From Desulfosediminicola ganghwensis (GTDB lineage: Bacteria > Desulfobacterota > Desulfobulbia > Desulfobulbales > Desulfocapsaceae): DNA of 64,000 nucleotides. Position 1 is the first letter of the stretch. Every line of letters starts with the position of its first letter. Positions 22,577 to 40,725 of the stretch are shown here, piece after piece. The stretch is from NCBI RefSeq assembly GCF_005116675.2, contig NZ_CP050699.1:5155001-5219000 (forward strand). The letters run 5' to 3'. The position numbers were made by a program, and so were the translations under genes. The notes beneath the pieces are model-generated. The model searched no databases. It was not told the origin of the DNA and saw only the letters and a list, made by a program, of their open reading frames with translations.

Positions 22577-22634
22577 TTTAAAACCATCTCCCCCCGAACG
22601 TCAGGCAACATATTAAATTCCTTTACTATTGGTG

Positions 22635-23891
22635 ATGCAGTTGGGTGATTCTTCGACCTTTAATATATTGATGTATTCCCACGACACATATGGGCTGGGC
22701 CATATCCGTCGTACCATGGCCATAGCAAGCCATCTGCGTAGTGAGAATACCAATGTCCTGATCCTTACCGGATCTCCAATCGCTGGGCGCTTTCCATTTC
22801 CCGAGCAAGTTGACTTCGTTCGTATCCCCGGAATGATCAAAAAGACCAACGATGACTATCAATCCCTTTCCATTCGCATTGAGCAGGAACAGGCACTGAG
22901 CATTCGTACCAATATAATTCTGGCCACTGCAAAAACTTTTCGCCCGGATCTGTTCATTGTCGATAAAGAGCCCCATGGCCTGAAAAAAGAAGTGCTGCCG
23001 ACCCTGGAATGGCTGAAAACAGACAGTCCTAAAACCACATCTATTCTTGGCCTGAGAGATATTCTCGATGATGACACCACCATCCGCCAGGACTGGCAGG
23101 CAAAAGGTGTCTATCAATCGCTGGAAAATCTCTATGACCAAATATGGGTGTATGGAGACCAGGATATTTATGACCCTATCAGTCATTATCAGATACCTGA
23201 AAGTGTTCAGCACAAGGTAACCTTTACCGGTTATATCCCGCGCAAAACCCTGCCGACCAATACCTGGAGCAAAGTGAGAAAACGTTACCGGATTCTCGAC
23301 ACTGATCTTTTTGTACTGGTAACCACAGGTGGCGGCGGTGATGGCAAAGAGGTGGTTGAACATTTTCTGGCCATGCACGATTACTATCCTACCTCACTGC
23401 CTTTCAAATCGATTATCATCACCGGCCCATTCATGCCTAAAGAGCAGCGCTACAAAATCCAGGCCCGTGCCAAGCAGCACGGCATAAAAACACTTCACTT
23501 TCATCCTCGAATTGAAGAACTGATAAATGCATCTGACCTCGTTATCTCGATGGGTGGCTATAATACCATTTGTGAAATTCTTACTCAGAAAACCCCAGCC
23601 CTGATCGTCCCCAGAGAAACTCCCAGGAAAGAACAGCTGATTCGGGCAACCTGCCTTGAGACCAAAGGACTTCTCGACTACATCCCATGGAGCGAAGTCA
23701 CGCCCCAATTGCTGAGGGAAAAAATCTTCTCTATGATCCAAAACCGCACCAGTTATGTCTCGGCAATGAACAGTTTCCAACTTTCAGGTCTTGCTACCAT
23801 GCAGTCTCAACTTGAGTCGCTGCAACAGACGACTCTTAAGCAGACCACGTTTTCGCCGGCGCTGACACACGACCATTCAAACGATTCCTGA
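22635..23891 (+). CDS. GT28-like glycosyltransferase (COG4671 type), first copy
   Basis: A 418-residue protein resembling predicted glycosyltransferases related to MurG. The N-terminal half opens with MYSHDTYGLGHIRRTMAIA, the donor-side GLGH motif; the C-terminal half has a Gly-rich loop (VLVTTGGGGDGKE) and the nucleotide-sugar region LVISMGGYNTICEIL followed by PRETPRKEQ. These are the hallmarks of GT-B enzymes of the MurG class. The ATG at 22635 is preferred to TTG and GTG codons just upstream. First gene of a five-gene cluster; a second, diverged paralogue is at 25797-26981. Acceptor and donor are unknown. Confidence 0.82.
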   Translation: MQLGDSSTFNILMYSHDTYGLGHIRRTMAIASHLRSENTNVLILTGSPIAGRFPFPEQVDFVRIPGMIKKTNDDYQSLSIRIEQEQALSIRTNIILATAKTFRPDLFIVDKEPHGLKKEVLPTLEWLKTDSPKTTSILGLRDILDDDTTIRQDWQAKGVYQSLENLYDQIWVYGDQDIYDPISHYQIPESVQHKVTFTGYIPRKTLPTNTWSKVRKRYRILDTDLFVLVTTGGGGDGKEVVEHFLAMHDYYPTSLPFKSIIITGPFMPKEQRYKIQARAKQHGIKTLHFHPRIEELINASDLVISMGGYNTICEILTQKTPALIVPRETPRKEQLIRATCLETKGLLDYIPWSEVTPQLLREKIFSMIQNRTSYVSAMNSFQLSGLATMQSQLESLQQTTLKQTTFSPALTHDHSNDS

Positions 23892-23902
23892 TTCCTACTT
23901 AA

Positions 23903-25162
23903 ATGAATTACACAACTTCCAAGATTGCATATATATTGAAAGGGTACCCCAGAATTTCTGAGACTTTTATTTCCAATGAGATTCTGCAGCTGGAACAACA
24001 CGGCTTTTCCCTGAGAATTTTCTCCATGCGGCATCCACGGGAAAACTTTAGTCACGATTCTGTAAAGAAAATCAAAGCTCGAGTCGACTATCTGCCGACA
24101 GAACTTTTGCTTGATTTCCCCAGACTCATCACTCCAAATATTTTTCTTGCGGCTCAATGCCCTTCCGCATATCGCGCTGCTCTCAAACTCGCCAGACGCA
24201 GGTTCAACAGGACCAGAAAACTCGCTACGTTAAAGCATATGCTGCAAGCAGGGTATATGACATGGCACTTTCTACGCACTGACTCCACCATACATCATCT
24301 ACACGGCCACTTTGCCCATTCTCCCACCTCGGTTACGATGTTTGCGGCAATTCTTGCCAATAAACCATTTAGTTTCACCGCTCATGCCAAGGATATCTAC
24401 ACCTCAAACCCCAACCAACTGGCCGAGAAAATTGAAGCGGCTGATTTCGTAGTAACCTGCACCCAGGCTAACGAAAAATATCTTCAGTCAATCTCGGGTG
24501 GATGCAACACGCCAATACACTGCATTTACCATGGTATTGATCTGGCTCTCTTTAACAATATCAAGCAACCGCATCCGGTCCGGGAACCATACAAGTTTTT
24601 TACCATCGCAAGGCTTACCGAGAAAAAAGGGCTGCCAACCCTCTACCAGGCACTGGCAATCCTCAAGCAACAGGGAGTGGCTTTCAATCATGTTCTCATC
24701 GGTGACGGTGACGACAGAGAAAAAATTCTCGATCTTATCTGTACGCTTAATTTGACCGATTCGTGTTCCTGGCTTGGCACCCGCACTCACGATGACGTCC
24801 TCACCCAGTTCAGCCAGACAGACCTTTTTATACTGCCCTGTGAGATCGCAGAAAACGGAGATCGCGATGGTATTCCCAATGTGTTGGTTGAGAGTCTTGC
24901 CATGGGGGTACCTGCCATTTCGACCAATGTTTCTGCAATCCCGGAAATCATCATAGACGGGCAGACTGGTCGAACAGTCGAGCCTCGTAATCCTGATCAG
25001 CTCGCCAGGGCAATACTTGAGATCATGGAAGACGAATCTCTCAGAAATACCTTTATCAGCAACGGTAAAGAATGGGTGAACGAACGCTTCGACAATACGC
25101 GTTGGCTGCTGAAACTGGCAGAGATCTTCGAAAATCAACCGCACCTGAGAATGATCAACTGA
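23903..25162 (+). CDS. GT4-family glycosyltransferase
   Basis: A 419-residue retaining GT-B glycosyltransferase. N-terminal KGYPRISETFISNEI, central FTAHAKDIY, donor-binding TIARLTEKKG, and the E-x7-E region PNVLVESLAMGVPAISTNVS leading to PEII. GT4 enzymes transfer sugars from nucleotide sugars to polysaccharide or lipid acceptors. It starts 11 bases after the upstream GT28-like gene, in the same operon. No membrane segments. Confidence 0.9.
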   Translation: MNYTTSKIAYILKGYPRISETFISNEILQLEQHGFSLRIFSMRHPRENFSHDSVKKIKARVDYLPTELLLDFPRLITPNIFLAAQCPSAYRAALKLARRRFNRTRKLATLKHMLQAGYMTWHFLRTDSTIHHLHGHFAHSPTSVTMFAAILANKPFSFTAHAKDIYTSNPNQLAEKIEAADFVVTCTQANEKYLQSISGGCNTPIHCIYHGIDLALFNNIKQPHPVREPYKFFTIARLTEKKGLPTLYQALAILKQQGVAFNHVLIGDGDDREKILDLICTLNLTDSCSWLGTRTHDDVLTQFSQTDLFILPCEIAENGDRDGIPNVLVESLAMGVPAISTNVSAIPEIIIDGQTGRTVEPRNPDQLARAILEIMEDESLRNTFISNGKEWVNERFDNTRWLLKLAEIFENQPHLRMIN

Positions 25163-25170
25163 AGGCAGTC

Positions 25171-25800
25171 ATGGATTTATCATCTCGTAGCACTTTCAAA
25201 TACGGCCTGTTCAGACATGGGGAAACAACCTGGAATAAAGAAAAGCGAGTCCAGGGCCACGGCGACTCACCTCTTACCGACAAGGGAATCGCTACCCTCA
25301 GGCAGTGGGCTGTGCAGCTTCAGCGCCAGAACTGGCAGCATATCCTCTGCAGCGACCTTGGCAGAGTGCAGCAGTCGGTCGGGATACTGAATGAAATACT
25401 CAAGCTGCCAGTCACCACTGACCAGAATCTCCGGGAACAGAACTGGGGGAAATGGGAAGGGATGAGGGTTAAGGATGTGTACCAGCAGTTCCCTGAGGAA
25501 CTTGGGCTTCAAGTCAAAAGGGGCTGGGATTTCCAGGCACCTGGAGGCGAGAGCCGTAGGGCGGTACGTGATCGCCTTTTTCAAGCCCTGCTCAATCACC
25601 GGCTCAGCAACCCGGCAGACAACACCCTGGTAGTCTGTCATCTGGGTGTCATAAAGTGTGCCATCTATGCTATTGCAAATCGAAAATTTATGGAGGATGA
25701 GCCACCTCTCCTGCAAAAGGACACTATGCATACTATCGCCTACCACAAAAATTATACCCTCGGCCAACTCAACATTCCCCTGGAGCAAGACGAGTCATGA
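25171..25800 (+). CDS. Histidine phosphatase family protein
   Basis: A 209-residue phosphoglycerate-mutase-like phosphatase. Catalytic RHGETTWN (phospho-His at about residue 17), the acid LREQNWGKWEGM region, and the second catalytic His in VVCHLGVIKC are present. I use the ATG at 25171, eight bases after the GT4 stop, because the upstream in-frame starts overlap that gene. Its stop overlaps the next gene's start by four bases (ATGA). In this operon it may remove a phosphate from a sugar or lipid intermediate; that is inference. Confidence 0.88.
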   Translation: MDLSSRSTFKYGLFRHGETTWNKEKRVQGHGDSPLTDKGIATLRQWAVQLQRQNWQHILCSDLGRVQQSVGILNEILKLPVTTDQNLREQNWGKWEGMRVKDVYQQFPEELGLQVKRGWDFQAPGGESRRAVRDRLFQALLNHRLSNPADNTLVVCHLGVIKCAIYAIANRKFMEDEPPLLQKDTMHTIAYHKNYTLGQLNIPLEQDES

Positions 25801-26981
25801 GCTCATTGAGAATTGCCTATTACTGTCAGCATGTACTTGGAATCGGTCATGTACACCGCAGTATTGCAATTTGCCAGGCTCTGGCGCTTCGTCATGAGGT
25901 CACCCTGATTCTTGGCGGACCTGCGGTCTCGGAAATTCCTGATACGCTCTCAGTTTTTCAGCTTCCCGGCCTGAAAATGGATGCCGAGTTTAAGAATCTG
26001 CAACCAGTCGACAACGACCTCGAACTCAGCGATGTCAAAAAACTGCGACTCGCAAATTTAAGACAATTTTTCACCGACTGGGCCCCAGAGATCTTCATCG
26101 TCGAGCTGTATCCGTTTGGCAGAAAAGCCTTTCGCTTTGAACTCGATCCATTGCTCAGGGACATCCGCAATGGCCTCTACAATCCTGATTGCAAATGTTA
26201 TATCAGCTTACGGGATATCCTTGTCGAACGCCCTGATGACAAAGAAAAATTTGAAGCACGGGCGCTTGACACCACAAACAGTTTGTTTGATGGGCTGCTC
26301 ATTCATTCAGATCCTGAAGTCATTACGCTTGATGAAACGTTTTCAAGGTATAATGATATTACGATCCCTATCGCCTATACCGGGTTTGTGACCAAAAGTT
26401 ATCAGCCGGGTTTTCGTCCCAAACTTCGCCATGAATTGGGATTGGGAGGTAAAGATAAACTTATTGTCGTCAGCATTGGCGGCGGCAATGTAGGGTCACA
26501 GCTCCTGAAGCTCAGTCTTGCCGCGTTTAATCAACTGCCAGATGATGAGTATTTTTATCATCTGGTCGCGTTTGCCGGCCCGTATCTGGATGAACATATT
26601 TTCCAGACTCTCAGTGCAGAGCTTCCTGAGCGGGCGACACTGCTCCGCTTCAGCAACAGGTTTCAGGACTGGTTACAGGCGGCCGATCTTTCCATCTCCA
26701 TGGCCGGGTACAACACCTGCATGGATATTGTACAGTGCGGCGTTCCAGCCATCGTTTTACCTTTTGCGCAAAACCAGGAACAAAGATTTCGTGCAGAGCG
26801 GCTCAGCACAAAGGGTGCTATAAAGGTTTTAACCAACGATGAACTGGTAGCTGAGAATTTGCAGGACCTCATGCGGCTGATGACACTACTGCCCAGGACA
26901 CGTTCAACAATAGACCTGGATGGTGCCAACAATACTCTGGCCATTATTGAAACCTTCCATCAAAAAGTTGGGCGAACCTGA
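25797..26981 (+). CDS. GT28-like glycosyltransferase (COG4671 type), second copy
   Basis: A 394-residue paralogue-like partner of the 22635 gene. It has YYCQHVLGIGHVHRSIAIC at the N-terminus, the Gly-rich IVVSIGGGNVGSQ loop and SISMAGYNTCMDIVQCGVPA at the donor site, followed by PFAQNQEQ. The two proteins are only distantly similar overall, so they probably use different donors or acceptors. Four-base overlap with the phosphatase and one-base overlap with the next gene show translational coupling. Confidence 0.82.
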   Translation: MSSLRIAYYCQHVLGIGHVHRSIAICQALALRHEVTLILGGPAVSEIPDTLSVFQLPGLKMDAEFKNLQPVDNDLELSDVKKLRLANLRQFFTDWAPEIFIVELYPFGRKAFRFELDPLLRDIRNGLYNPDCKCYISLRDILVERPDDKEKFEARALDTTNSLFDGLLIHSDPEVITLDETFSRYNDITIPIAYTGFVTKSYQPGFRPKLRHELGLGGKDKLIVVSIGGGNVGSQLLKLSLAAFNQLPDDEYFYHLVAFAGPYLDEHIFQTLSAELPERATLLRFSNRFQDWLQAADLSISMAGYNTCMDIVQCGVPAIVLPFAQNQEQRFRAERLSTKGAIKVLTNDELVAENLQDLMRLMTLLPRTRSTIDLDGANNTLAIIETFHQKVGRT

Positions 26982-27778
26982 TGAATTACACTATCCCGAT
27001 TCTTTACCAGAAAGAAATCCCCAACCTCTCAAACAGATTAGGAACGATCTTTGACCAGGCAATTGACAACTGGCAAAGATCTGCTGCCCATGATGCCAAA
27101 ATACGGGTCTTCTTCCGGGCAGATGATATCGGCGTTCCCTCGAAGAAGTTCACAAAACTCATTCAGCTTTTCCAAAAACATTACATGCCACTCTGCCTTG
27201 CTGTAGTGCCGGCCTGGCTCACTGCCCGGCGAACCCGGGAACTTCTCAGCCTAACCGGCTCAGACGATTCACAATGGTGCTGGCATCAACATGGCAGATT
27301 ACATAAAAATTTTGAACCATCGGGTAAAAAACAGGAATTCGGTCCTGCCCGCTCGCGGGAAGAGGTAGGCCATCATCTCGAACTGGGCCAGAGCCGTTTA
27401 CAGGAGCTGCTGCAGGATAAGTTTTCTCCCTATTTTACCCCGCCCTGGAATCGTTGCAGCCTGGACACCGCCCAGATTCTGAAATCCCTCAATTTTAATG
27501 CGATATCGCGGTTTACAGGAGCACAACCTGATTTCACAGACACTATTGCCGGTATTGATGTCAATGTCGACCTCCATACCGGAAAAGAGAACTCATCCGA
27601 GCGTGCTGCCGACAAGTTGTTCGACCAGCTCCACACTGCTCTTGGCAGCGGCTACTGTGGTATAATGATCCATCATCAGCTGATGAACGATCATGCCTTT
27701 CATCTGCTTGATCTGCTGCTCACTGAAGTTGCGCAAAAAAACACGTGCGAGCCATGCCTCTTTCAGGACTTTTCATAA
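26981..27778 (+). CDS. Polysaccharide deacetylase-like (NodB-fold) protein
   Basis: A 265-residue protein with the CE4 pattern: FFRADDIGVP (catalytic Asp pair near 46-47), WHQHGRLHKN (H-x4-H metal ligands) and FTPPWNRCS (motif 3), plus IMIHHQLM at the end. Such enzymes remove acetyl groups from N-acetylated sugars using a metal ion. No signal peptide, so a cytoplasmic substrate, possibly a nucleotide- or lipid-linked sugar, is suggested. Last gene of the glycosyltransferase cluster. The deacetylase assignment is by motifs; the family also contains enzymes with other activities. Confidence 0.75.
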   Translation: MNYTIPILYQKEIPNLSNRLGTIFDQAIDNWQRSAAHDAKIRVFFRADDIGVPSKKFTKLIQLFQKHYMPLCLAVVPAWLTARRTRELLSLTGSDDSQWCWHQHGRLHKNFEPSGKKQEFGPARSREEVGHHLELGQSRLQELLQDKFSPYFTPPWNRCSLDTAQILKSLNFNAISRFTGAQPDFTDTIAGIDVNVDLHTGKENSSERAADKLFDQLHTALGSGYCGIMIHHQLMNDHAFHLLDLLLTEVAQKNTCEPCLFQDFS

Positions 27779-28866: not shown

Positions 28867-29604
28867 ATGACTAAAAAGCATATCGTCCGCGTTACCGGAG
28901 TTACCAAGGACTTCGATTTGGGCAAACATGTCATACAAGTTCTCAAGGGCATAGATCTGGAAATCGAGACGGGAAAGTATATTTCTATAATGGGCCCTTC
29001 CGGCTCAGGCAAATCAACTCTTTTCAACATGATAGGTGGGCTGGATAAGCCCAGTGGCGGCAAGGTTTTCATCGACGAGGTAGATATCGCTCAGCTGGAC
29101 GCGTATGAACTTGCCTGGCTCAGGTGTCGTAAAATCGGCTATATCTTTCAAACCTTCAACCTGATCCCGGTTATGACGGCACTCGAAAATGTTACTATCC
29201 CCATGACCTTTGCCGGAGCATCACATGATGATTCCCTGGAGCGAGGGATGGAGTTATTGGAACTGGTAGGCCTGGAGAACAGACACAGCCATCGGCCTTC
29301 TGAGCTTTCCGGTGGCCAGCAGCAACGTGTCGCGGTTGCCCGGGCACTTGCAAATAACCCCTCAATAATTCTTGCCGATGAGCCCACCGGCAATCTCGAT
29401 CTGAAAACAGGCGAAGACATTATCAAGCTGCTCAAGGAACTCAGCACCGCCTATGGGGTTACCGTTATTTCTGCTACCCATGATTATAAGATGCTCAATG
29501 TTTCCGATCAGGTGGTCTGGATTCGTGACGGCAGGATAGACAAAATTCAGGAACGATCTGAACTGGAAATTAAAACTGGAGGGTTGGAAAGTTCCAACTC
29601 GTAA
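28867..29604 (+). CDS. ABC transporter ATPase, LolD/MacB-N type
   Basis: A 245-residue ATPase of the family that drives FtsX-like mechanotransmission permeases. Walker [10 protein letters not shown] (about 40-48), Q-loop [10 protein letters not shown], signature [11 protein letters not shown], Walker [13 protein letters not shown] and an H-loop SATHD are complete. The neighbours on both sides carry FtsX-type permease domains, so it most probably powers a heteromeric permease made of the 28059 product and the C-terminal part of the 29641 product. Located in the cytoplasm at the membrane. Confidence 0.9.
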
Positions 29605-29640
29605 AAGAAACTACCCGAATTGATCTTGTTGAGGATTCGT

Positions 29641-32600
29641 ATGCAGCGATTCTCCCATCTTCATATAGCCACGCTGCTGCAGTTGATATGTGGCGCTCTG
29701 CTGCTCTTTGCACCGGAAGCTCAGAGCTCTGCCCAATCAGCAGGGCCTGAATTTATACGAGAAACACTCAACAAAGTCAGCACATTTTCCAGTAGAGCCA
29801 TAGGCAGCGAAGGTGTCGAATCTGCTGCCCGCCTGATAGAAGATCATTTCATCTCTCTGGGTCTCAAACCCGAAAGTCATAATTTTGAGATTACCTCACG
29901 TCAATCCCGGGGGGCCACCATCAATTTCAAGGGAGTGACGCACCCTCTCCACCCCTTTCCTAATAACGCCATCACCCCGGGCGCCACTGGTGAAAAAGAC
30001 GGTACCCTTGAGGGACCACTCTACTACGTAGGAAAAGGTTCACTCGAAGAGTTGAACGGCAAGGATATTGCCGGCGCTATCGTCCTGATGGAGTTCAATT
30101 CATCACGTAACTGGCAGACTCTCGCCAGCCTTGGCGCCCGCGCTCTCATTTTTATCGATAGGGAGGCCACCCGCGCCAGCTTCTACTTTTGGGAAAAACA
30201 GGAACTCTCTCCTTTGCAATTTCCCTGTTTCTGGCTTGATGAAGGGATGACCGAGACCATTTTCGGTAATAGCCTGCCCGGCCAGGCCGATGGCGGTAAA
30301 ATTGCCGATTCCGTTACCCTCACTGCTGACATAGCCTGGAAAAATGGAATCACCAGAAATATCTATGCAGTTATCAACGGCAGCGATGAGGACTTGCAGG
30401 ATGAGCTTCTCATAATCGAAGCTTTTTATGATACGCCCGAGTTTGTTACAGGCCGCGCGCCCGGGGCCGATGCCGCACTCTCGCTTGCCACCCTGCTCTA
30501 TCTTGCCGAGGAGCTGGTTGAAAATCCGCCGGCCAGATCCGTGCTGCTGGTTGCTACCAGCGGCCATGCCCAATCCCTTGCCGGTATGCGGGAGATGATC
30601 TGGTCCCTTGATACGCGCTCCAGAGAACTGCGCAACACCCGTCGGGAACTGGAAAAAGATATCAAGACGCTTGAGGAACAAAGCGCTCTCCTCCGAAGCC
30701 TTGAATTCCCGCTCGGCGAGGATAAAGAACGAGATAAGGTGCTGGCCCAGATCATCAATAAACACCTCAAGTATCAGATTGACACTATCTCTCGCGATCT
30801 TATGCAATTGCGTTTAGCCGGAGATCGTGAGAAATACCGATCAGAGATAGCCACGCAGGCCACCACACGTTTTGCACTCAGGCAATTGAGCTGGGCCGAA
30901 ACATTTCATGATCTTGACACAGGTGGTGAAGAAACTCTTCAATCCATTATTCCGGATGCACTCTCCGATAACCAGGAACTACTCTCTCAGCTGAACATTC
31001 AATACCAGAACCTCATCAGCGCCACCCGCTTCAGGCAGACGGTCAGGGGATTTGATATTGCCGCAGTTGTCAGCCTGCATCTCTCGAGTCATGGTAGCGG
31101 AGTTGGCGGGTTTCATCGCGGCTGGCTCTATAAGCTTAAACCAACCATCAATCGCACGGGAATCTATTCAACCATCGCCGATGTACTCAAGGAAGCCGGC
31201 GAAGCGTCCCCCGCCAGCTACAACTATTATGACACCTTGCGCCCGGGACGGCTGAGACCTTGGGACTCCTGGTTTCTTGACAACCCGCAGCTTGGAGGTG
31301 AAGTAAGCTCCCTCGCCGGATTTATAGGCATCAGTCTGGTGACCGTCGGTGACGGTCGATTATCATGGGGCACGCCATGGGATACAGTGGACAAAGTCGA
31401 CCTGACCAACGGTTCCAACCAGGCAGCACTGGTGGCCGATCTCGTTTACGGCCTGGCCAGGGCTCCAACCCTAAACTCCGGCAGGTTGCCAAGAGATGGG
31501 CTGGCGGATGCCACCGCCAGGACAAACCTGCTGCTGCAAGGCGAGTTATTTGCCGATTTTCCCGCGGCCGGAACGACCATCCTCGCCTATCAGGGGCTCA
31601 ATCGTTTCTACGCCACCGTTGATGGTCGCGGGCAATTTCAGATTCGTGGTCTCGCCGACAAAAAGAACGTCTTTGACAAGCTGATCATCGAAGGCTACAA
31701 ATTCGATCCCAAGAGTGGTAGCGTTATCTGGGCTATCGATAAAAACACGACCGGCAAGAACAATTATCGTCTGAAAATGCTCAGAAAATCGATGCGTACC
31801 GACCTGGTCATGTTCAATAGCCGGGAAACAACATTCTTCGACTTGCTTGAGCCTCGCAATTTTCAGTACATGACGAAATTGCAACTCTACGACGGTCGTC
31901 GTGACGCGCCACCACAGCATTTCTGGTATAGTCGAATCGATACCAGAAAATCAAACATCGCCTCAATTTATCTCGAGCCTGGCGCCCTGCTCAAGATGAC
32001 GCTTTCAGATACCATCCTTACCACCAAAATGATTCTCACCAATGGCACTGAGGATCGGCCTCTGGGGTTAGGGTACCCTGTCAATGACTACAGCAAACTT
32101 CCCAACACCACGCTCCATGCCGCCCACGATGCCTGGTCACTCTTGCAGCCAAGAATAAGAAACCTCGAATCCCACGGTATATTTGATGAAAAAATCAATG
32201 GACTGGAGCAAAGGGGCATCGAGGCCCTCAAAACCAGCCAAAATGGTTTTGCCGCACTCAACTACTCCATCGGCAGAGAAAAAGCCTCTGAATCTCTGGC
32301 CATTGCTTCCCGTGTATATTCCCAGATTGAAAAAAGCCAGAAAGACGTATTATTCGGAGTACTGTTCTACATCGCTCTCTTTATTCCCTTCGCTTTTTGC
32401 ATGGAGCGTTTTCTTTTTAACTTCAATAATATCTATAAACGAATACTCGGGTTCAGTGGTATTCTCATCGTCCTGATTGCCATTATTTACCAGGTACACC
32501 CGGCCTTTCAGCTCACCTACAGCCCACTTGTGGTAATACTCGCCTTTTTTATAATAGGCCTGTCACTTATGGTCACCCTTATCATCTTCTTTCGGTTCGA

Positions 32601-34518
32601 AAAAGAGATGGCACTGCTGCAGCAGCGGTCCACCCATAAACGACCGGATGAGATCAGTCGCTGGAAAGCATTTGTGGCGGCATTCTTCCTCGGCGTCTCC
32701 AATCTCAGGAGGAGAAGACTCAGGACTATTCTTACCTGCACCACCCTGATTATTCTCACCTTCACCATAATGAGCTTTACCACCATCAAATCCAATCGTG
32801 AAGAAAACAGGCTCCAGCTCCAGCCACAGGCACCGTACCAGGGATTGCTGCTCAAAAAGCTGAACTGGGCAAGTCTGCCGCCACAGGCCACTGACATCCT
32901 GGTCAACTCGATGAAATCGATCGAGCAACCTGCCACCCGCGTATGGCTTGAGGCGGGTAACCCATCACAAACCATCCATGCCCCCCTGGTCCGTGATGGA
33001 CGAGACGCATCCATACAGGGATTAATAGGCCTTACCGCCCAGGAACCTTCGGTGACCGGCCTGGATTACATCCTTACCAGTGGCAGATGGTTCACCGATG
33101 ATGACAACTCTGTAATTTTACTTGAAGATGATACCGCCAGGCGGCTCGGGATCGATCCGTCTGTCATGAGAGACAAGCTGACATACAAGGTTAAACTCTG
33201 GGGGGCAGACTTTACCGTTGTCGGCACCTTTTCGGCAGAAAAACTTGAAAAGGCCATAGACCTCAATGGTGAGCCCCTGACTCCGGTCACGTTCCCCCAG
33301 GAAGCCGGGGCAACAACCACAGAAACAGAGCAGGAAGCGCTTGAATCCGGTGAAGACATCAGGCTCTTTCAAAGCCGATATACCCATATTCCAGCGAGCC
33401 AGGTCGCCATTATCCCTGCGAATTCCCTCCTGGCTGCAGGCGGCAGCTTAAAGAGTATCGCAGTTAAGCCAGAGTCCGGCGAGGCGATAGACAAACTGGC
33501 AAAAGAGCTGTCTGACCGTTTCAGCCTGGCCATTTTCACCGGTGAGAACGACGGAGTCTTTCTCTACAACGTCAGTGATACCATCAATTACAGTGGTGTT
33601 CCCAATATCATTGTACCGCTTCTCATCTCCGTGCTGATCGTACTGAACACCATGATCAGCTCTGTTTACGAACGAAAAAACGAAATAGCAATCTATACTT
33701 CCGTCGGCCTTGCACCCTCGCACGTAGCGTTTCTGTTTGTGGCTGAGGCTATTGCCCTGGCAGTAATCTCCGTCGTACTCGGCTATGTGATAGCTCAAGT
33801 CTCTGCATTCCTCTTATCACACACCACACTCTGGCAGGGCATAACGGTCAATTATTCATCGCTGGCCGGTGTTGCTGCCATGGCCCTGGTAATTCTGGTG
33901 GTTCTGGTCTCAGTTATCTACCCTGCCAAAGTTGCTTCGCGAATAGCGATACCCGACGTAGAACGCACCTTTACCTTGCCCCAACCTGTCAATAACACCA
34001 TCTCCGTAACATTACCATTTCTCATGAAATATCATGAACATGAAAGTATTGGCGGCTTCATTCACGAATATTTCACAGGGCATCAGGATATCTCACACGG
34101 CATTTTCTCAACCGGCCCTGTAGATGTCATTTTCAGCTGTTCAACCCTGGACGAACTGCGCCAGATGGTAGACAATTCATCAAAACCGAGTGAACTTCTA
34201 TGCCTGCACCTGCGCGCCAACGTCTGGCTTGCACCTTTTGATTTTGGCATAATGCAACTTGTTGATGTTCAATTCTGTCCAGCCCAGGAGGGACGTGAGT
34301 ATCTGTCCATCAAAGTAACTCTCAAGCGTAAATCCGGAGAAGCCCAAATCTGGCGCAGGATTAACACTGTATTCCTTAATGATCTGCGCAAACAGTTGTT
34401 GGTCTGGCGATCCCTTACCCCTGAAGAGCATGCTGATCTTGCCGCAGCATTCCAACTCGTTTCAGCGGGAAAAGAGTCTGGAACCGAGGGAGCACACATC
34501 ACCATGGAGACCGCCTGA
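29641..34518 (+). CDS. Giant M28-pseudopeptidase / FtsX permease fusion
   Basis: About 1625 residues from the ATG at 29641 (GAGG seven bases upstream); an upstream TTG would add seven. Order: signal peptide; M28-like aminopeptidase fold with PA-type insert (about 30-320); a long region with coiled coil and beta parts (320-880); about 3 membrane helices (890-990); an FtsX unit with TM (RRRRLRTILTCTTLIIL), a MacB-like periplasmic domain and three closing helices; and a C-terminal cytoplasmic tail. The M28 part lacks zinc ligands: the usual H-x-D, DD and EE positions read EAFYD, GADAAL and SGHAQS, so it is probably inactive. It is likely one permease half of the neighbouring ATPase. Its exact substrate is unknown. 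Confidence 0.8.
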   Translation: MQRFSHLHIATLLQLICGALLLFAPEAQSSAQSAGPEFIRETLNKVSTFSSRAIGSEGVESAARLIEDHFISLGLKPESHNFEITSRQSRGATINFKGVTHPLHPFPNNAITPGATGEKDGTLEGPLYYVGKGSLEELNGKDIAGAIVLMEFNSSRNWQTLASLGARALIFIDREATRASFYFWEKQELSPLQFPCFWLDEGMTETIFGNSLPGQADGGKIADSVTLTADIAWKNGITRNIYAVINGSDEDLQDELLIIEAFYDTPEFVTGRAPGADAALSLATLLYLAEELVENPPARSVLLVATSGHAQSLAGMREMIWSLDTRSRELRNTRRELEKDIKTLEEQSALLRSLEFPLGEDKERDKVLAQIINKHLKYQIDTISRDLMQLRLAGDREKYRSEIATQATTRFALRQLSWAETFHDLDTGGEETLQSIIPDALSDNQELLSQLNIQYQNLISATRFRQTVRGFDIAAVVSLHLSSHGSGVGGFHRGWLYKLKPTINRTGIYSTIADVLKEAGEASPASYNYYDTLRPGRLRPWDSWFLDNPQLGGEVSSLAGFIGISLVTVGDGRLSWGTPWDTVDKVDLTNGSNQAALVADLVYGLARAPTLNSGRLPRDGLADATARTNLLLQGELFADFPAAGTTILAYQGLNRFYATVDGRGQFQIRGLADKKNVFDKLIIEGYKFDPKSGSVIWAIDKNTTGKNNYRLKMLRKSMRTDLVMFNSRETTFFDLLEPRNFQYMTKLQLYDGRRDAPPQHFWYSRIDTRKSNIASIYLEPGALLKMTLSDTILTTKMILTNGTEDRPLGLGYPVNDYSKLPNTTLHAAHDAWSLLQPRIRNLESHGIFDEKINGLEQRGIEALKTSQNGFAALNYSIGREKASESLAIASRVYSQIEKSQKDVLFGVLFYIALFIPFAFCMERFLFNFNNIYKRILGFSGILIVLIAIIYQVHPAFQLTYSPLVVILAFFIIGLSLMVTLIIFFRFEKEMALLQQRSTHKRPDEISRWKAFVAAFFLGVSNLRRRRLRTILTCTTLIILTFTIMSFTTIKSNREENRLQLQPQAPYQGLLLKKLNWASLPPQATDILVNSMKSIEQPATRVWLEAGNPSQTIHAPLVRDGRDASIQGLIGLTAQEPSVTGLDYILTSGRWFTDDDNSVILLEDDTARRLGIDPSVMRDKLTYKVKLWGADFTVVGTFSAEKLEKAIDLNGEPLTPVTFPQEAGATTTETEQEALESGEDIRLFQSRYTHIPASQVAIIPANSLLAAGGSLKSIAVKPESGEAIDKLAKELSDRFSLAIFTGENDGVFLYNVSDTINYSGVPNIIVPLLISVLIVLNTMISSVYERKNEIAIYTSVGLAPSHVAFLFVAEAIALAVISVVLGYVIAQVSAFLLSHTTLWQGITVNYSSLAGVAAMALVILVVLVSVIYPAKVASRIAIPDVERTFTLPQPVNNTISVTLPFLMKYHEHESIGGFIHEYFTGHQDISHGIFSTGPVDVIFSCSTLDELRQMVDNSSKPSELLCLHLRANVWLAPFDFGIMQLVDVQFCPAQEGREYLSIKVTLKRKSGEAQIWRRINTVFLNDLRKQLLVWRSLTPEEHADLAAAFQLVSAGKESGTEGAHITMETA

Positions 34519-36519
34519 ATGAGCGAAAATTCCACAGCCAGAGATGCTCTCCCTATCAGGTTTCGGGCGCCATTGCTCGGGCTTGTCATGGCTATCGGCA
34601 TTTGCGCCATTACCCCGTTCAATAACATTTACCTCCAGGCTACTCCATTAGGCGGCGGGCACTTCCCCCTCGCACCCTTTTTTGTTTTCCTTCTGCTGTC
34701 TCTTCTCGTCTACCTGCTCGGCAAGATCCACTCATCACTGCAAATTCTCACCGGTGTGGAGTTGCTCATCGTCTGGATGCAGATGGTTATCGGCTCCGGA
34801 ATAGCCTACACAGGCCTGGCACGGACATTTTTAATCAATTTGACCGCACCGTATCATTACGCCACCCTGGGCAACCGCTGGCAACAGACACTTCATCCGC
34901 TGCTTCCACCAGCGCTCAGCCCCACCGATCCTGAATCCATAGAGCTCCTATACACGGGTATTCCGGGTGGCCGTGGTATGGGATGGTTTGAACTTGCCGG
35001 GCAGATTCCCTGGGTAGACTGGTTGAAGCCCTTGTTACTCTGGAGTGTGTTTATCTTTCTCAGTTACGGAGTCATGATTTGCCTGGTGAATCTCATTTCA
35101 CGACAATGGATCCACAATGAGCGTATGAATTTTCCATTGCTCAAGGTACCACAAACCATCAGCAGCGCCCTGGACAACAATGAATTTGGTGCGCTCTTTT
35201 TCAATAAGTTCCTGATCGCCGGCATCAGCCTGCCAGTGTTCCTGCATCTCATCAATGGCCTCAGTGTTTATTATCCAACTATCCCTCCGATACCAACCTT
35301 ACTGCTGGCTGCACCCTATATAGCAGAAAGCGGTCTGCTGGTTGGATTCAGTAAACTCAAACTCTATTTTTATCCTGCCTTCATAGGCTTCGCCTTTCTC
35401 ACCTCCCGCCAGATCTCTTTCTCTTTCTGGTTCTTTTTTCTGATTGGCGGGCTGTTCTTTGGAGTGCTGAACCTGCTCGGCTACTCCATCCCTCAATCGG
35501 AACTCGGCATTACCTTTGGCCCAACCCTGACACGCCCGGAAGAAATGCAGATGATCGGTGCCTATGGAGTGTTTTTTCTGTTTCTGGTCTGGCTTGCCCG
35601 TCATCACCTGTTGACGGTAACCAAACAATCATTCCTGCTGATGCCACCATCAGCCGTTCGCTCCGAGTGGTTTGATGTCCGCTTATCGTTTTGGGGACTT
35701 TTTCTGGGAGGAGCCGGCATAATAGCCTGGTACGTCTGGTTGGGGATGAACGTCGTCACCGCGGGTCTGCTGGTTGGCGCATTCTTCATGATCAGCCTGG
35801 TCGCAGCCCGCATTATCTGCCAGGGTGGTCTGGCCTATTTTACCCTGACCGCCGCTCCCATGGATGGCCTCATTGCCCTGTTCGGTACCAAGCTCTTTGC
35901 CGGCACCGGAGGTCTACTGGCCGGCATGAGCCAGAAAGCTCTTTTTGTCGACTTACGCGAATCCCTCATGCCCTCCCTGGTTCATGGCAGGAGTATTCAT
36001 CAGAATCGTCAACCGGCATTCATACTCTTCGGTTCACTTGTATTGACCATACTACTCAGCACCGTTGCCTCAGTAGTTGCCATGATGCTGCTCTGCTATC
36101 GATTCGGCATCAGGGAGCTCCAGCTCGAATGGGCAAATCGGACGACACTGGCGGTTTTTGAAAACATTAACAGACTCATCTCCGCACCAGTGGAGTCCGG
36201 AACCTGGGTCTTTATCTTCGCCTTGATCGGTGCGCTCATCATGCTGGTGCTGGTTGTCTGCTACCACCGGCTCTACTGGTGGCCAATTCACCCCATCGGC
36301 TACCTTACCGCATATAGCTCAGCGATGCGTATCCTCTGGGTCAGCTTTTTTATTGGCTGGGCATGCAATGCCCTCTGCATGCGCTATGGCGGGATACACC
36401 TGTTTCGAAAGCTGCAGTTCTTCTTCATTGGCCTGATTATCGGAGACTTCCTGATGGGCGGGGGCTGGGCTATTGTCGGCCTGTATACCGGTACCAGCTA
36501 CAAGGTGCTGCCCGATTAG
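34519..36519 (+). CDS. OPT-like multi-pass membrane protein, first copy
   Basis: A 666-residue integral membrane protein with about 14-15 hydrophobic helices. Segments such as NNIYLQATPLGGGHFPL near the N-terminus and RIICQGGLAYFTLTAAPMD near 435-455 recall an uncharacterised oligopeptide-transporter-like group (from memory, the DUF6785/DUF6784 type). The gene starts directly after the stop of the M28-FtsX fusion (TGAATG), which couples their translation. A transport role, possibly for peptides or lipid-linked compounds, is inferred from fold alone. No signal peptide or catalytic motif was recognised. Confidence 0.72.
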   Translation: MSENSTARDALPIRFRAPLLGLVMAIGICAITPFNNIYLQATPLGGGHFPLAPFFVFLLLSLLVYLLGKIHSSLQILTGVELLIVWMQMVIGSGIAYTGLARTFLINLTAPYHYATLGNRWQQTLHPLLPPALSPTDPESIELLYTGIPGGRGMGWFELAGQIPWVDWLKPLLLWSVFIFLSYGVMICLVNLISRQWIHNERMNFPLLKVPQTISSALDNNEFGALFFNKFLIAGISLPVFLHLINGLSVYYPTIPPIPTLLLAAPYIAESGLLVGFSKLKLYFYPAFIGFAFLTSRQISFSFWFFFLIGGLFFGVLNLLGYSIPQSELGITFGPTLTRPEEMQMIGAYGVFFLFLVWLARHHLLTVTKQSFLLMPPSAVRSEWFDVRLSFWGLFLGGAGIIAWYVWLGMNVVTAGLLVGAFFMISLVAARIICQGGLAYFTLTAAPMDGLIALFGTKLFAGTGGLLAGMSQKALFVDLRESLMPSLVHGRSIHQNRQPAFILFGSLVLTILLSTVASVVAMMLLCYRFGIRELQLEWANRTTLAVFENINRLISAPVESGTWVFIFALIGALIMLVLVVCYHRLYWWPIHPIGYLTAYSSAMRILWVSFFIGWACNALCMRYGGIHLFRKLQFFFIGLIIGDFLMGGGWAIVGLYTGTSYKVLPD

Positions 36520-36544: not shown

Positions 36545-38503
36545 ATGTATGATGACAAGGAATTAAAAGAATATCGGGATCTGCTTCCACCGCCAACCCA
36601 CTTTGAGGAGGGTTTTGACTGGAAGACCATCATCGGCGCCATCTTCATCGGCTTCCTGATGATGCCCGGTTCCATGTACCTGCAGCTTGTCATCGGCCAG
36701 GGTATTGGTCCTGCCGCCCGCTGGGTTACCATCATACTCTTTGCCGAAATCGCTAAGCGTGCCCACTCCGACCTTAAACAACAGGAAATTTTCCTGCTTT
36801 ATTATATGGCAGGTGCCGCACTTGCCTCCCCTTTTTCCGGTTTGCTATGGAACCAGTACCTGGTTCAATCTGATGCATCACGCATGCTCGGAGTCACCGA
36901 GTTCATTCCCACCTGGGTGGCACCGGGCGCTGACTCTGCCTCCATGGTTGAGCGGACCTTTTTCCATCGTGACTGGCTGATCCCTATATTGCTGTTGGTC
37001 GGCTCCCAGATCATTCAGCGCATCGATCACTTTGGTCTCGGTTACGCGTTGTACAGGATAACTTCGGATGTGGAACGGCTGCCTTTTCCAATGGCACCTG
37101 TTGCCGCTCTCGGCACAATGGCGCTGGCCGAGTCGACAGAAGAGCGTGAAAAAAGCTGGAAATGGCGGGTATTTTCCATCGGCGGAATGATTGGACTTAT
37201 TTTCGGGAGCATCTATGTGGTGCTGCCCATCATCACCGGACTCATTTTCACAGAACAGATCCGACTGATTCCCATCCCCTGGATAGAACTGACCAGTTAC
37301 ACCGAAGGCTTCCTTCCCGCAGTGGCAACGGGGCTGCAGCTCGACCTCGGCCTCATGTTCGTAGGCATGGTTCTCCCCTTCTGGGCAGTAATTGGCGGGC
37401 TTATCGGTTTGATAATTACCATCATTCTCAACCCGCTCCTCTATTCATGGGGCATTCTTGAACGATGGCATCCGGGCATGGCCACGGTAGACACCGTATT
37501 TGCCAATAATTTTGATTTTTATATGAGCTTCGGCATCGGTCTGGGCCTTGCGATTGGCTGCATCGGTGTCTGGTCGGTTGTCCGCTCGTTCAGAGCCGGC
37601 AAAGACCAGCGCGGTTCACTGCACGATCTTTTCAACCCGCCTCCGGGGAGGGGGGATTTCAACTTCTGGATATCCATCGCTATCTATCTATTTTCCACCC
37701 TAGCCTACGTTGGGCTCTGTGTCTGGCTGGTACCGTCATTCCCCTGGATTTTCTTCCTTGCCTATGGCTTTATCTACACCCCGATAATCAGTTACATAAC
37801 CGCACGCATGGAAGGAATAGCCGGCCAGTTTGTCAGCCTGCCACTGGTACGAGAGGCGAGTTTCATTGCCGGGGCACGTTTTTTCGGCTATCAGGGCATC
37901 GAGATCTGGTACGCCCCTATCCCTATCCACAATTACGGTGAAGCAACCGTACAATTCAGGCAGATAGAACTGACCGGTACCTCGATCCGTGGAATCATCA
38001 AAGCAGAGCTGCTGGTTTTCCCTGTGGTGATGATCGCCAGCCTGATGTTTTCCCAGTTTATCTGGCGACTGGCTCCCATCCCATCTGCCAGCTATCCTTT
38101 CGCCCAGGAACTCTGGCATCTCCAAGCCCTGAATACTTTACTGATGCAGACCTCCACCCTGGAAGGCAACTCCATGTTCTACCAGGCGCTGGACGGCTCA
38201 ACCATCTTTACCGGTCTTGGCTTTGGTCTGCTGATGTATATGATGCTCAGTTTTCTGGGACTTCCTATACTGCTCATTTACGGTGTAGTGCGTGGCCTTG
38301 GCCAATCAACTCCTCACGGTATGGTCCTTGAAGTCGCCGGCGCTCTGCTGGGAAGATATTTTTTCCTGAAAAAATTCGGGCCGATGTGGCGTCAGTATGC
38401 ACCGGTGCTCCTTGCAGGGTTTTCATGTGGCATGGGGCTATCCGGCATGTTCGCCATGGGTTTCGCCCTTATCATGAAATCCCTCAACTATATGGCGTAC
38501 TAG
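36545..38503 (+). CDS. OPT-like multi-pass membrane protein, second copy
   Basis: A 652-residue multi-pass protein of the same OPT-like type as its left neighbour, starting 25 bases after it. It opens with a cytoplasmic stretch (EYRDLLPPPTHFEEGFDW) and then about 14 helices, including MMPGSMYLQLVIGQGIGPAARW and FGLGYALYRITSDVERLPFPMAPVAALG (quoted in part). Sequence identity to the 34519 product is low by eye, so the pair may form a heterodimer rather than be recent duplicates. Function unknown. Confidence 0.72.
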   Translation: MYDDKELKEYRDLLPPPTHFEEGFDWKTIIGAIFIGFLMMPGSMYLQLVIGQGIGPAARWVTIILFAEIAKRAHSDLKQQEIFLLYYMAGAALASPFSGLLWNQYLVQSDASRMLGVTEFIPTWVAPGADSASMVERTFFHRDWLIPILLLVGSQIIQRIDHFGLGYALYRITSDVERLPFPMAPVAALGTMALAESTEEREKSWKWRVFSIGGMIGLIFGSIYVVLPIITGLIFTEQIRLIPIPWIELTSYTEGFLPAVATGLQLDLGLMFVGMVLPFWAVIGGLIGLIITIILNPLLYSWGILERWHPGMATVDTVFANNFDFYMSFGIGLGLAIGCIGVWSVVRSFRAGKDQRGSLHDLFNPPPGRGDFNFWISIAIYLFSTLAYVGLCVWLVPSFPWIFFLAYGFIYTPIISYITARMEGIAGQFVSLPLVREASFIAGARFFGYQGIEIWYAPIPIHNYGEATVQFRQIELTGTSIRGIIKAELLVFPVVMIASLMFSQFIWRLAPIPSASYPFAQELWHLQALNTLLMQTSTLEGNSMFYQALDGSTIFTGLGFGLLMYMMLSFLGLPILLIYGVVRGLGQSTPHGMVLEVAGALLGRYFFLKKFGPMWRQYAPVLLAGFSCGMGLSGMFAMGFALIMKSLNYMAY

Positions 38504-38634: not shown

Positions 38635-38776
38635 TGATATAGAGCTCTGGAAATACAGCAGATTCAAGCCCATTTGATTATATCTCATCCTAATCTCGCA
38701 CCAACTTCATCAATGGGCAGCACATTTCTTACCGCTCTTATCCACATATAGCCTTAACGAGCCTGCAGGAGTGATT

Positions 38777-39382
38777 ATGTCAAAACTCTATATACTGACC
38801 CTTTTATCAACGCTGACGATCTTCACCCTTTCTTACTCTGGTGCATCGCTTGCAACATCTGAGGTACCACTCGGGGTTGGCGGCTTTGCCCTCGGTAATA
38901 ATATTGACAACTACCCGGACCTGATGGAGACCAATTACCTCCAGGAGACAGTCGTTACCGACTGGAGAGGGTTTCGTAAAGGTGTCCTCAGCTACGGGAC
39001 CTGCAAATACAACAGGCAGATCCTCAAAATACAAATGAAGTACGTCGATTCAAGCCAGGACTTTTATGAAACTCTTCTGCAAAAGTTCAAGGCCAAATTT
39101 GGGCCCCCGGACGAATGGAAAGGCGATTCGTTTGGCATTCTCAGGAACTGGAAATGGTATTTTACAGACAGTCAGGACAGATCTGTCAGCCTGGTTCTGC
39201 AACACAACCTTCGTAACCCCAACGAGACCACTGGTAACATGGTTAAGATTTCCTTTCCACAACTACTCGAGGAAGAGCGACTTTGCTTCAACAGGAAATG
39301 CGAGGAAATGAGAAACGACCACGACCGGGAGCGTATTGAAGAGATAAAAAAGCCAGACTGGAAATTTATGATCCCAGACTAA
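38777..39382 (+). CDS. Secreted hypothetical protein
   Basis: A 201-residue protein from the ATG at 38777 (CAGGAG seven bases upstream). A signal peptide covers residues 1-26 (hydrophobic core then SLA-like end). The mature part is a compact alpha/beta region with GVGGFALGNNIDNYPDL, KFKAKFGPPDEWKGD, KWYFTDSQDRSVSLVLQHN and a charged C-terminal helix containing two cysteines (LCFNRKC). The start resembles periplasmic proteins with a G-x-x-LG repeat that measure mismatch in a domain, but no family is recognised. It begins the second part of the unusual locus. Confidence 0.7.
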   Translation: MSKLYILTLLSTLTIFTLSYSGASLATSEVPLGVGGFALGNNIDNYPDLMETNYLQETVVTDWRGFRKGVLSYGTCKYNRQILKIQMKYVDSSQDFYETLLQKFKAKFGPPDEWKGDSFGILRNWKWYFTDSQDRSVSLVLQHNLRNPNETTGNMVKISFPQLLEEERLCFNRKCEEMRNDHDRERIEEIKKPDWKFMIPD

Positions 39383-39413: not shown

Positions 39414-40376
39414 ATGCTGACATTCGATACCACCGAGCCAATCCGGCGAATTGGCTGGAACAATATCCAGCTTGAACTTCCCAGTGGCTGGGAAACCATC
39501 GTATCAGGTGACAGGAACCTGCTCATTGAACAAAACTTCAAGCCGCTCATTGACTTACGCTGGGAAAAAGACAATGGCAGACGCGACCTTTCCGATGTGT
39601 TTCTCTCTATCCAGAACGTTCTTGGTAAACGCTCGGGATGCCCAGTGGATAAAGTAGATGTGCCGGATGAGCTTGCCCGGCTTGCCTCCCAGACAGGCTG
39701 TATAGCGTTCAGCTGGGCAGCAACAGCTGGACCTCAGTGTCAGGATAGTGAACAAAAAATCAATGGTGTACTCTGGCGTTGCCCGGATTGTGATACTATC
39801 GTGATCGGCCAGTTATACAATCACCCGACTATCGGCCTGAACGCACTCGTCTCTGCTCTCGCCTCAATCCGTTGCCACCAAGATGATGCCGACGCCGACG
39901 CGAGCGACTCAAGTTATTGGTCAATTCAGGACATCAAATTAACCCTGCCTGCCTCCTGCAGGATGTCAGCTCACTCCTTTCAGGCTGGCCTGACCCGGCT
40001 GACTTTTCAGGAAAACGATATGCAGCTTCATTTCTGCCGCCTAGCCCCAGCCAGGCAGAGATTACAACAAGGCTCTATATCTCAATTACTCACCAATCTT
40101 CTGGGTAAAGATTCTGAGTACCAGGGGCTCTACGAATCATCTCATCTTTATGAGTGTATAAGTTCTCCACCGCTCACCCAGCAAATGTTGAAGAGATTGA
40201 AGCGACAGCATCCATTTCGCTGGGGTCGAATCTGGCATGATGAAGGCTCTAACCGCCTCCTCTCTGTGATTGCAGAAAGCAGCCACCCCATAGACCTCGA
40301 AAAGGTCCACAGACTTTGCGATAAATATGAAATTATTGACTCCCGGAAAGAGCACAAAGCCTCAGAGTCCCCCTAA
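39414..40376 (+). CDS. Hypothetical protein, co-transcribed with PqqD-like protein
   Basis: A 320-residue soluble protein of no recognised family. It seems to have two related halves: an N-terminal domain opening with WNNIQLELPSGWETI (about 15-150) and a C-terminal domain with SIQDIKLTLPASCRMS (about 168-300), both resembling a beta-rich fold. A CPDCD motif occurs near 123-127. No signal peptide or membrane segment. Its 3' end overlaps the PqqD-like gene by 50 bases, so the two products are probably made together and may interact. Confidence 0.68.
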   Translation: MLTFDTTEPIRRIGWNNIQLELPSGWETIVSGDRNLLIEQNFKPLIDLRWEKDNGRRDLSDVFLSIQNVLGKRSGCPVDKVDVPDELARLASQTGCIAFSWAATAGPQCQDSEQKINGVLWRCPDCDTIVIGQLYNHPTIGLNALVSALASIRCHQDDADADASDSSYWSIQDIKLTLPASCRMSAHSFQAGLTRLTFQENDMQLHFCRLAPARQRLQQGSISQLLTNLLGKDSEYQGLYESSHLYECISSPPLTQQMLKRLKRQHPFRWGRIWHDEGSNRLLSVIAESSHPIDLEKVHRLCDKYEIIDSRKEHKASESP

Positions 40377-40725
40377 ACCGAGCAGATCCGAGGCGCTGGC
40401 CTGTGTTCCGGTAATTATGCCCCAGGCCCAGTGGGTTAAACAGGAAAACGGTGATATTCTGGTCGAATACCCCTTTGTTGCCAAGCCACTGTTACAAGCA
40501 ATTTTCAACCGCTTCAACGGTGCAAATCAACAGAAATTAACCAGAAAACTACAATTGGATGGTCTTGGCAGCCAGGTATGGGCAGCCATCGATGGTGAAA
40601 AATCGGTTGCGGAACTTATCAGGGATTTCGCAGAATCCTCAACAATGTCAATGCAGGAAGCGGAATTATCGGTAACGACCTTTCTACGGGAACTGGGAAA
40701 GCGAGGCCTCATTCTATTGCGTTAA
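40327..40725 (+). CDS. PqqD-like protein
   Basis: A 132-residue protein. Residues 1-28 are a Pro/Lys-rich tail, then a PqqD-type winged helix: VKQENGDILVEYP, QLDGLGSQVWAAIDGEKSV, LIRDFAESSTMS and VTTFLRELGKRGLILL. It starts inside the end of the preceding gene. PqqD-like domains recognise leader peptides for modifying enzymes, but no such enzyme is in the locus, so here it may act as a protein-protein adaptor. It is the last plus-strand gene of the unusual locus. Confidence 0.8.
   Translation: MKLLTPGKSTKPQSPPKPSRSEALACVPVIMPQAQWVKQENGDILVEYPFVAKPLLQAIFNRFNGANQQKLTRKLQLDGLGSQVWAAIDGEKSVAELIRDFAESSTMSMQEAELSVTTFLRELGKRGLILLR

Follow-up and report, generated by a model that had tools for sequence, protein, structure and literature searches.

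Does an M28-type peptidase domain that is joined to an FtsX permease still cut its substrate, or does it serve the cell envelope in another way? The question is raised by a giant inner-membrane permease encoded in the window (the 64,000-nucleotide stretch of Desulfosediminicola ganghwensis DNA analysed here). In a sequence-only reading, its zinc ligands had appeared to be missing and the protein was taken for a pseudo-enzyme fused to a mechanotransmission permease, which would bind a peptide rather than cleave it. The ORF list gives the gene as 29620/29641-34518 on the forward strand (1632 aa). Two in-frame starts are present, ATG at 29641 and, upstream of it, TTG at 29620; the ATG is the likelier start, and the signal peptide lies after it. 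Residue numbers of the giant permease are counted from TTG 29620.

Hydropathy indicated an N-terminal signal peptide and eight more hydrophobic segments. Two Pfam models (PF12704, PF02687) scored above their curated cut-offs, MacB_PCD at residues 1051-1298 and FtsX at 1332-1442, and they identify a type VII permease unit with a MacB-like periplasmic domain. FtsX was present in all 26 members of the C-terminal alignment. The curated NCBIfam cut-offs for MacB, LolC/E, FtsX and ADOP were not reached by the giant permease, the best scores being 27.7 bits for MacB (cut-off 966) and 21.3 for ADOP (cut-off 622). The layout of the protein and of the genes around it is given in the table. The best conserved stretches, expressed as mean majority-residue frequency, are the extra TM helices (0.79) and FtsX TM1 (0.87); conservation of the beta domain and the membrane helices equals or exceeds that of the M28 core, and the C-terminal extension is the least conserved part apart from the signal peptide. 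An origin of the extra TM helices as the leftover of a duplicated FtsX unit was considered and rejected, as they have no profile similarity to FtsX.

Table. Coordinates in the window of the parts of the giant permease and of the other genes of the block; residue numbers refer to the giant permease.
Feature	Position	Strand	Basis
Small FtsX-type permease, 220 aa	28059..28721	+	Pfam, profile comparison
LolD/MacB-like ABC ATPase	28867..29604	+	NCBIfam scan, motif check
Signal peptide, hydrophobic 14-32	29641..29733	+	hydropathy, ORF list
M28 fold, N-terminal part, residues 46-116	29755..29967	+	profile search, AF2 model, Foldseek
PA-domain-like insert, residues 117-236, boundary approximate	29968..30327	+	PA PF02225 in 5/27 relatives; alignment to BSAP, TfR
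M28 core: degenerate HxD (F269, D271), bridging D284 (probably retained), EE (H316 A317)	30328..30609	+	alignments
Long helical (coiled-coil-like) insertion inside the M28 fold, 331-476	30610..31047	+	AF2 secondary structure
M28 core, second half: SLHLSSHG strand and WGTPxDT loop	31048..31494	+	profile and hhalign alignments
Beta-rich domain, unnamed, well conserved, 626-830	31495..32109	+	AF2 model, conservation
Helical stalk, 831-905	32110..32334	+	AF2 model
Three extra TM helices ahead of FtsX TM1, 906-992	32335..32595	+	hydropathy, conservation
MacB/FtsX permease unit: TM1, MacB_PCD-like periplasmic domain, TM2-4	32710..33954	+	Pfam, C-terminal alignment
C-terminal cytoplasmic extension, 1446-1632	33955..34515	+	conservation
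DUF6785/DUF6784 polytopic protein	34519..36519	+	Pfam, AF2 model, Foldseek
652-aa polytopic membrane protein without known family	36545..38503	+	Pfam, NCBIfam, PDB scans, relatives

The window protein alone gave no match to the Pfam Peptidase_M28 model, and its N-terminal half was matchless on its own, which could favour a spurious resemblance to M28. That explanation is already contradicted by the relatives and by the structure model, and we give it virtually no credence. PF04389 was matched by 23 of the 27 members of the N-terminal alignment (the PA domain by five), and in a scan of 58 related genomes M28 exceeded the curated cut-off at the same place in at least ten relatives. A profile of residues 36-690 searched against solved structures matched 2ek8 (E 1.8e-11) and 6hc6 (E 6.9e-9), and also leucyl aminopeptidase (AAP) and the transferrin receptor; hhalign of the family profile against catalytically intact M28s gave 96%. 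The AlphaFold2 model of residues 36-905 was confident (pLDDT 87.3, pTM 0.87), and Foldseek paired it at a probability of 1.00 with 2ek8, BSAP, the transferrin receptor, PaAP and GCPII (E 8e-19 to M28). The ectodomain thus belongs to M28 as a fold and sequence family. The proposed union of an M28 fold with an FtsX permease is borne out by Pfam, profile, model and Foldseek alike, and the HMM searches recovered the domain order M28 (in relatives), MacB_PCD and FtsX.

Five residues act as ligands in an M28 metal site, namely the HxD His, a bridging Asp, the latter Glu of the EE pair, an Asp on a following strand and a C-terminal His; the first Glu of the pair is the catalytic base. The corresponding positions of the giant permease were mapped on sequence and profile alignments rather than on coordinates. 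The HxD His is replaced by F269; H316 sits at the position of the catalytic Glu and A317 at that of the zinc Glu; H487, in the SLHLSSHG strand, stands in place of the metal Asp; and in the WGTPxDT loop W583-G584 take the place of YH, so that G584 replaces the C-terminal His. The Asp of HxD is kept as D271. HMMER and hhalign, allowing for a deletion of one residue, align the invariant D284 with the bridging Asp (another hhalign run sets it one residue earlier), and one of the five ligands is therefore probably retained. These alignments suggest that the catalytic Glu and at least three, probably four, of the five zinc ligands have been lost. A co-catalytic zinc site of the active M28 type is absent, and the same pattern is seen in relatives. 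The sequence-only reading was thus right in part about the missing ligands: the HxD His and the EE pair are gone, but the DD motif, read as GADAAL, probably keeps D284. Its EAFYD at HxD has lost the His and kept the Asp, and SGHAQS at EE is confirmed.

Decay of the site extends over the family, which was sampled across Desulfobacterota. Relatives 43-68% identical were found in Desulfopila, Desulforhopalus, Desulfofustis, Desulfogranum, Desulfobacula and Desulfospira, and 297 Desulfobacterota genomes yielded 20 full-length giant permeases, 19 besides the window's own. The same decay was seen in about 45 relatives and in 19 remote ones, whose ectodomains are 26-41% identical where measured. The catalytic Glu position holds H, N, Q, Y, K, S, G or D in relatives and never E. 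Among the remote members, position 269 is F, P, S or R, position 316 is H, Q, N, Y, K, G or S, and position 487 is H, N, Y or S and once D. D271 and D284 are near-invariant over the combined set (at least 97%), and the near-invariant residues of the cleft region comprise these two with L486, S489, W583 and TP.D. The 297-genome sample yielded no FtsX fusion whose M28 site is intact; homologues with an intact site and ligands displaced elsewhere in the sequence were both sought within Desulfobacterota and not found. Judged from these alignments, the metal site is dead family-wide, and the earlier claim of a pseudo-enzyme fused to a mechanotransmission-type permease holds in every examined relative over a wide divergence. 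A literature search returned no paper on an M28-FtsX fusion.

Long ORFs with an intact site (L052, L101-L110) were considered as active fusions and rejected, since they consist of a gluzincin-like part, M28 and PDZ and have no FtsX. The intact HxD, DD and EE motifs were seen in L052, L101, L102, L104, L106, L107, L109 and L110, all of this gluzincin-like, M28 and PDZ type.

Beyond the initial observation, a conserved five-gene block was found around the pseudo-M28 permease, in the order small FtsX permease, LolD/MacB-type ATPase, pseudo-M28 permease, DUF6785/6784 protein and 652-aa membrane protein. The small permease has just a short loop where a periplasmic domain would be, and profile comparison relates it to the FtsX part of the giant permease; it is the probable heterodimer partner. 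The cognate ATPase carries intact Walker A, LSGGQ and Walker B motifs here and in relatives. The five-gene order is kept in Desulfobacterota loci long enough to show it, with the exception of two long loci (L035, L050) in which the downstream pair does not adjoin the giant gene. The small permease and the ATPase lie directly 5' of the giant gene in all nine remote genomes examined; in the G161 genome the final pair of the block is about 17 kb away. The giant permease, the DUF6785 protein and the 652-aa protein occur in the identical 20 of 297 genomes, one copy each, and are absent elsewhere in the sample; this count is uncorrected for shared ancestry, and the 20 genomes span 17 genera.

The AF2 model of the DUF6785 protein (pLDDT 76.7) was matched by Foldseek to barley Yellow Stripe 1 (YS1, 7wst/7wsr) at a probability of 1.00 and TM 0.54-0.59, the next unrelated match having a probability of 0.09. 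The protein is thus predicted to have the OPT/YSL fold, which is that of oligopeptide and metal-chelate transporters. Pfam OPT (PF03169) gave no match in it, nor in the 58 related genomes, this one included, and a literature search found no paper on DUF6785/6784. The 652-aa protein had no match in Pfam, NCBIfam or PDB. Its hhalign probability against OPT or DUF6785 was below 1%, no similarity to DUF6785 appeared when remote members were added, and no copy of the protein was found on plasmids. It is 79-92% identical among nearer relatives and still 70-73% identical where the giant permease is 33-37% and the neighbours 33-48% identical, which makes it the most constrained member of the block.

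What could a dead peptidase domain do in such a system? Wherever the giant permease is present in the phylum sample, the same two multi-pass membrane proteins accompany it, so its ectodomain probably serves to bind, and not to cleave, something at the cell envelope. The near-invariance of D271, D284, W583 and their surroundings despite lost catalysis would be expected of an old cleft that remains in use, and suggests that the former active site still binds something. OPT transporters are usually secondary carriers that need no ABC partner, a point which counts against the reading proposed here. In Myxococcus xanthus, OPT proteins are considered the chief porters for peptide uptake (PMC3924187), and type VII ABC systems perform ATP-driven work on the periplasmic side, the partner defining the function (PMC12646458). 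Our best reading, which we consider evenly poised between right and wrong, is that the giant permease forms the larger half of a type VII ABC heterodimer, in which the dead M28 domain serves as a module for binding or docking and works together with the OPT-fold transporter. By analogy with type VII systems, the small and the giant permease would form a membrane heterodimer served by two ATPase copies. Binding and hydrolysis of ATP would move the stalk and the MacB-type domain, and the motion would be passed on to the dead M28 domain. This domain would act in the periplasm to capture a ligand or the partner transporter, and the mechanical stroke would hand the ligand over or gate the OPT-fold transporter, with proteolysis playing no part. 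As the partner is predicted to be OPT-fold, a peptide, a peptide-like compound or a metal chelate is the likeliest ligand class. For the five-gene system, the substrate, the transport direction, binding, handover and complex formation are inferred. The suggestion of peptide binding without cleavage is therefore compatible with the data and gains indirect support from the predicted OPT fold of the strictly co-occurring partner, but a docking or scaffold role fits about equally well.

A pure docking role is the main rival to this reading. The M28 domain would then be a scaffold for the two polytopic partners with no small ligand, and the ABC stroke would gate the partners allosterically. The ligand-site residues other than D271 and D284 drift in remote members, the beta domain and membrane helices are conserved as much as or above the M28 core, co-occurrence with the partners is obligate, and the transferrin receptor is among the closest solved relatives. 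The invariant D271, D284, L486, S489, W583 and TP.D of the cleft, however, seemingly go beyond the needs of a scaffold, and we treat the pure docking role as a tentative possibility. Because remote members vary at H316 and H487, the family shows no one conserved binding chemistry, which weighs against the binding reading. The same two positions bear on the idea that the domain is still an enzyme with a rearranged site (for example D271, D284, H316 and H487) for metal-dependent or other hydrolysis. D271 and D284 are invariant, and H316 and H487 are frequent in the nearer group; but remote members change H316 to Q, N, Y, K, S or G and H487 to N, Y, S or D, and all members lack the catalytic Glu together with three or four of the zinc ligands, which makes residual hydrolysis very improbable.

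In many loci glycosyltransferase genes lie nearby, a hint at a role in envelope glycans instead, and this too counts against binding and handover to an OPT-fold partner. The system could extract or export an envelope lipid, lipoprotein or lipid-linked glycan in the manner of Lol, MacB or YbbAP, its substrate being made by MurG-type glycosyltransferases and a DUF2334 protein. In many loci, remote ones (L153, L154, L158) among them, the gene immediately upstream is a GT25797 homologue, and hydrophobic molecules are extracted by type VII ABC systems (PMC12646458). Several remote genomes (L155, L156, L162), however, keep the core block without nearby glycosyltransferases, so this route is less likely, and the constant partner is predicted to be OPT-like in fold; we regard it as unlikely. 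A bolder version of the preferred binding reading is an ABC-energised OPT system, in which a type VII mechanotransmitter with a dead-peptidase receptor would power or gate the OPT-fold transporter and the second membrane protein. Such a system, a transport machine of five proteins that would resemble neither the known secondary OPT carriers nor known type VII systems, appears doubtful.

The PA-containing M28 aminopeptidases (B. subtilis YwaD/BSAP, 6hc6; Aneurinibacillus, 2ek8) share with the giant permease the M28 fold, the PA insert, the HxD Asp and probably the bridging Asp. Unlike them, it has lost the catalytic Glu along with three or four of the zinc ligands, carries the long helical insertion, and continues into a beta domain, a stalk, TM helices and an FtsX permease. 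The M28-like ectodomains of the transferrin receptor and nicastrin serve protein-protein contacts. Like transferrin receptor 1 and nicastrin, which itself resembles M28 (PMC2647162), the giant permease has a membrane-anchored M28-type ectodomain without peptidase activity, as judged in its case from sequence; but it is bacterial where they are eukaryotic, and its anchor is an ABC permease instead of a single TM helix. Activity was likely lost independently of these two. With MacB, LolCDE, FtsEX and YbbAP-TesA the system shares an FtsX permease with a MacB_PCD-like domain and a LolD/MacB-like ATPase, and E. coli YbbAP likewise has a periplasmic hydrolase partner, TesA, with which it works (PMC12646458). 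It differs from type VII systems in its covalently fused dead peptidase, the three extra TM helices, the putative pairing with a permease that has no periplasmic domain and the obligate partner of predicted OPT fold. The DUF6785/6784 partner resembles OPT/YSL proteins (barley YS1, 7wst/7wsr) in predicted fold, but has no Pfam OPT sequence match and always stands alongside the ABC system in the phylum sample.

With the giant permease, the few M28 pseudo-peptidases on record gain a bacterial member that is coupled to ATP. The five genes of the block make up an envelope system that is strictly inherited together, and its most conserved member belongs to no known family. If the OPT link holds, two transporter classes thought separate, the mechanical type VII ABC systems and the OPT carriers, would be joined. 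Sulfate reducers that can be cultivated, Desulfopila or Desulfogranum for example, make the system open to testing.

Other genes flank the block in the window. Upstream, positions 22629-27778 encode glycosyltransferases (two GT28-type, one group 1), a histidine-phosphatase-family protein and a DUF2334 protein, which are conserved in many, not all, loci of the block. Downstream come three more: a small protein that looks exported (38771-39382), one of 320 aa that Pfam does not match (39414-40376) and one that is PqqD-like (40327-40725). Of these, the first two are conserved 3' of the block in several relatives.
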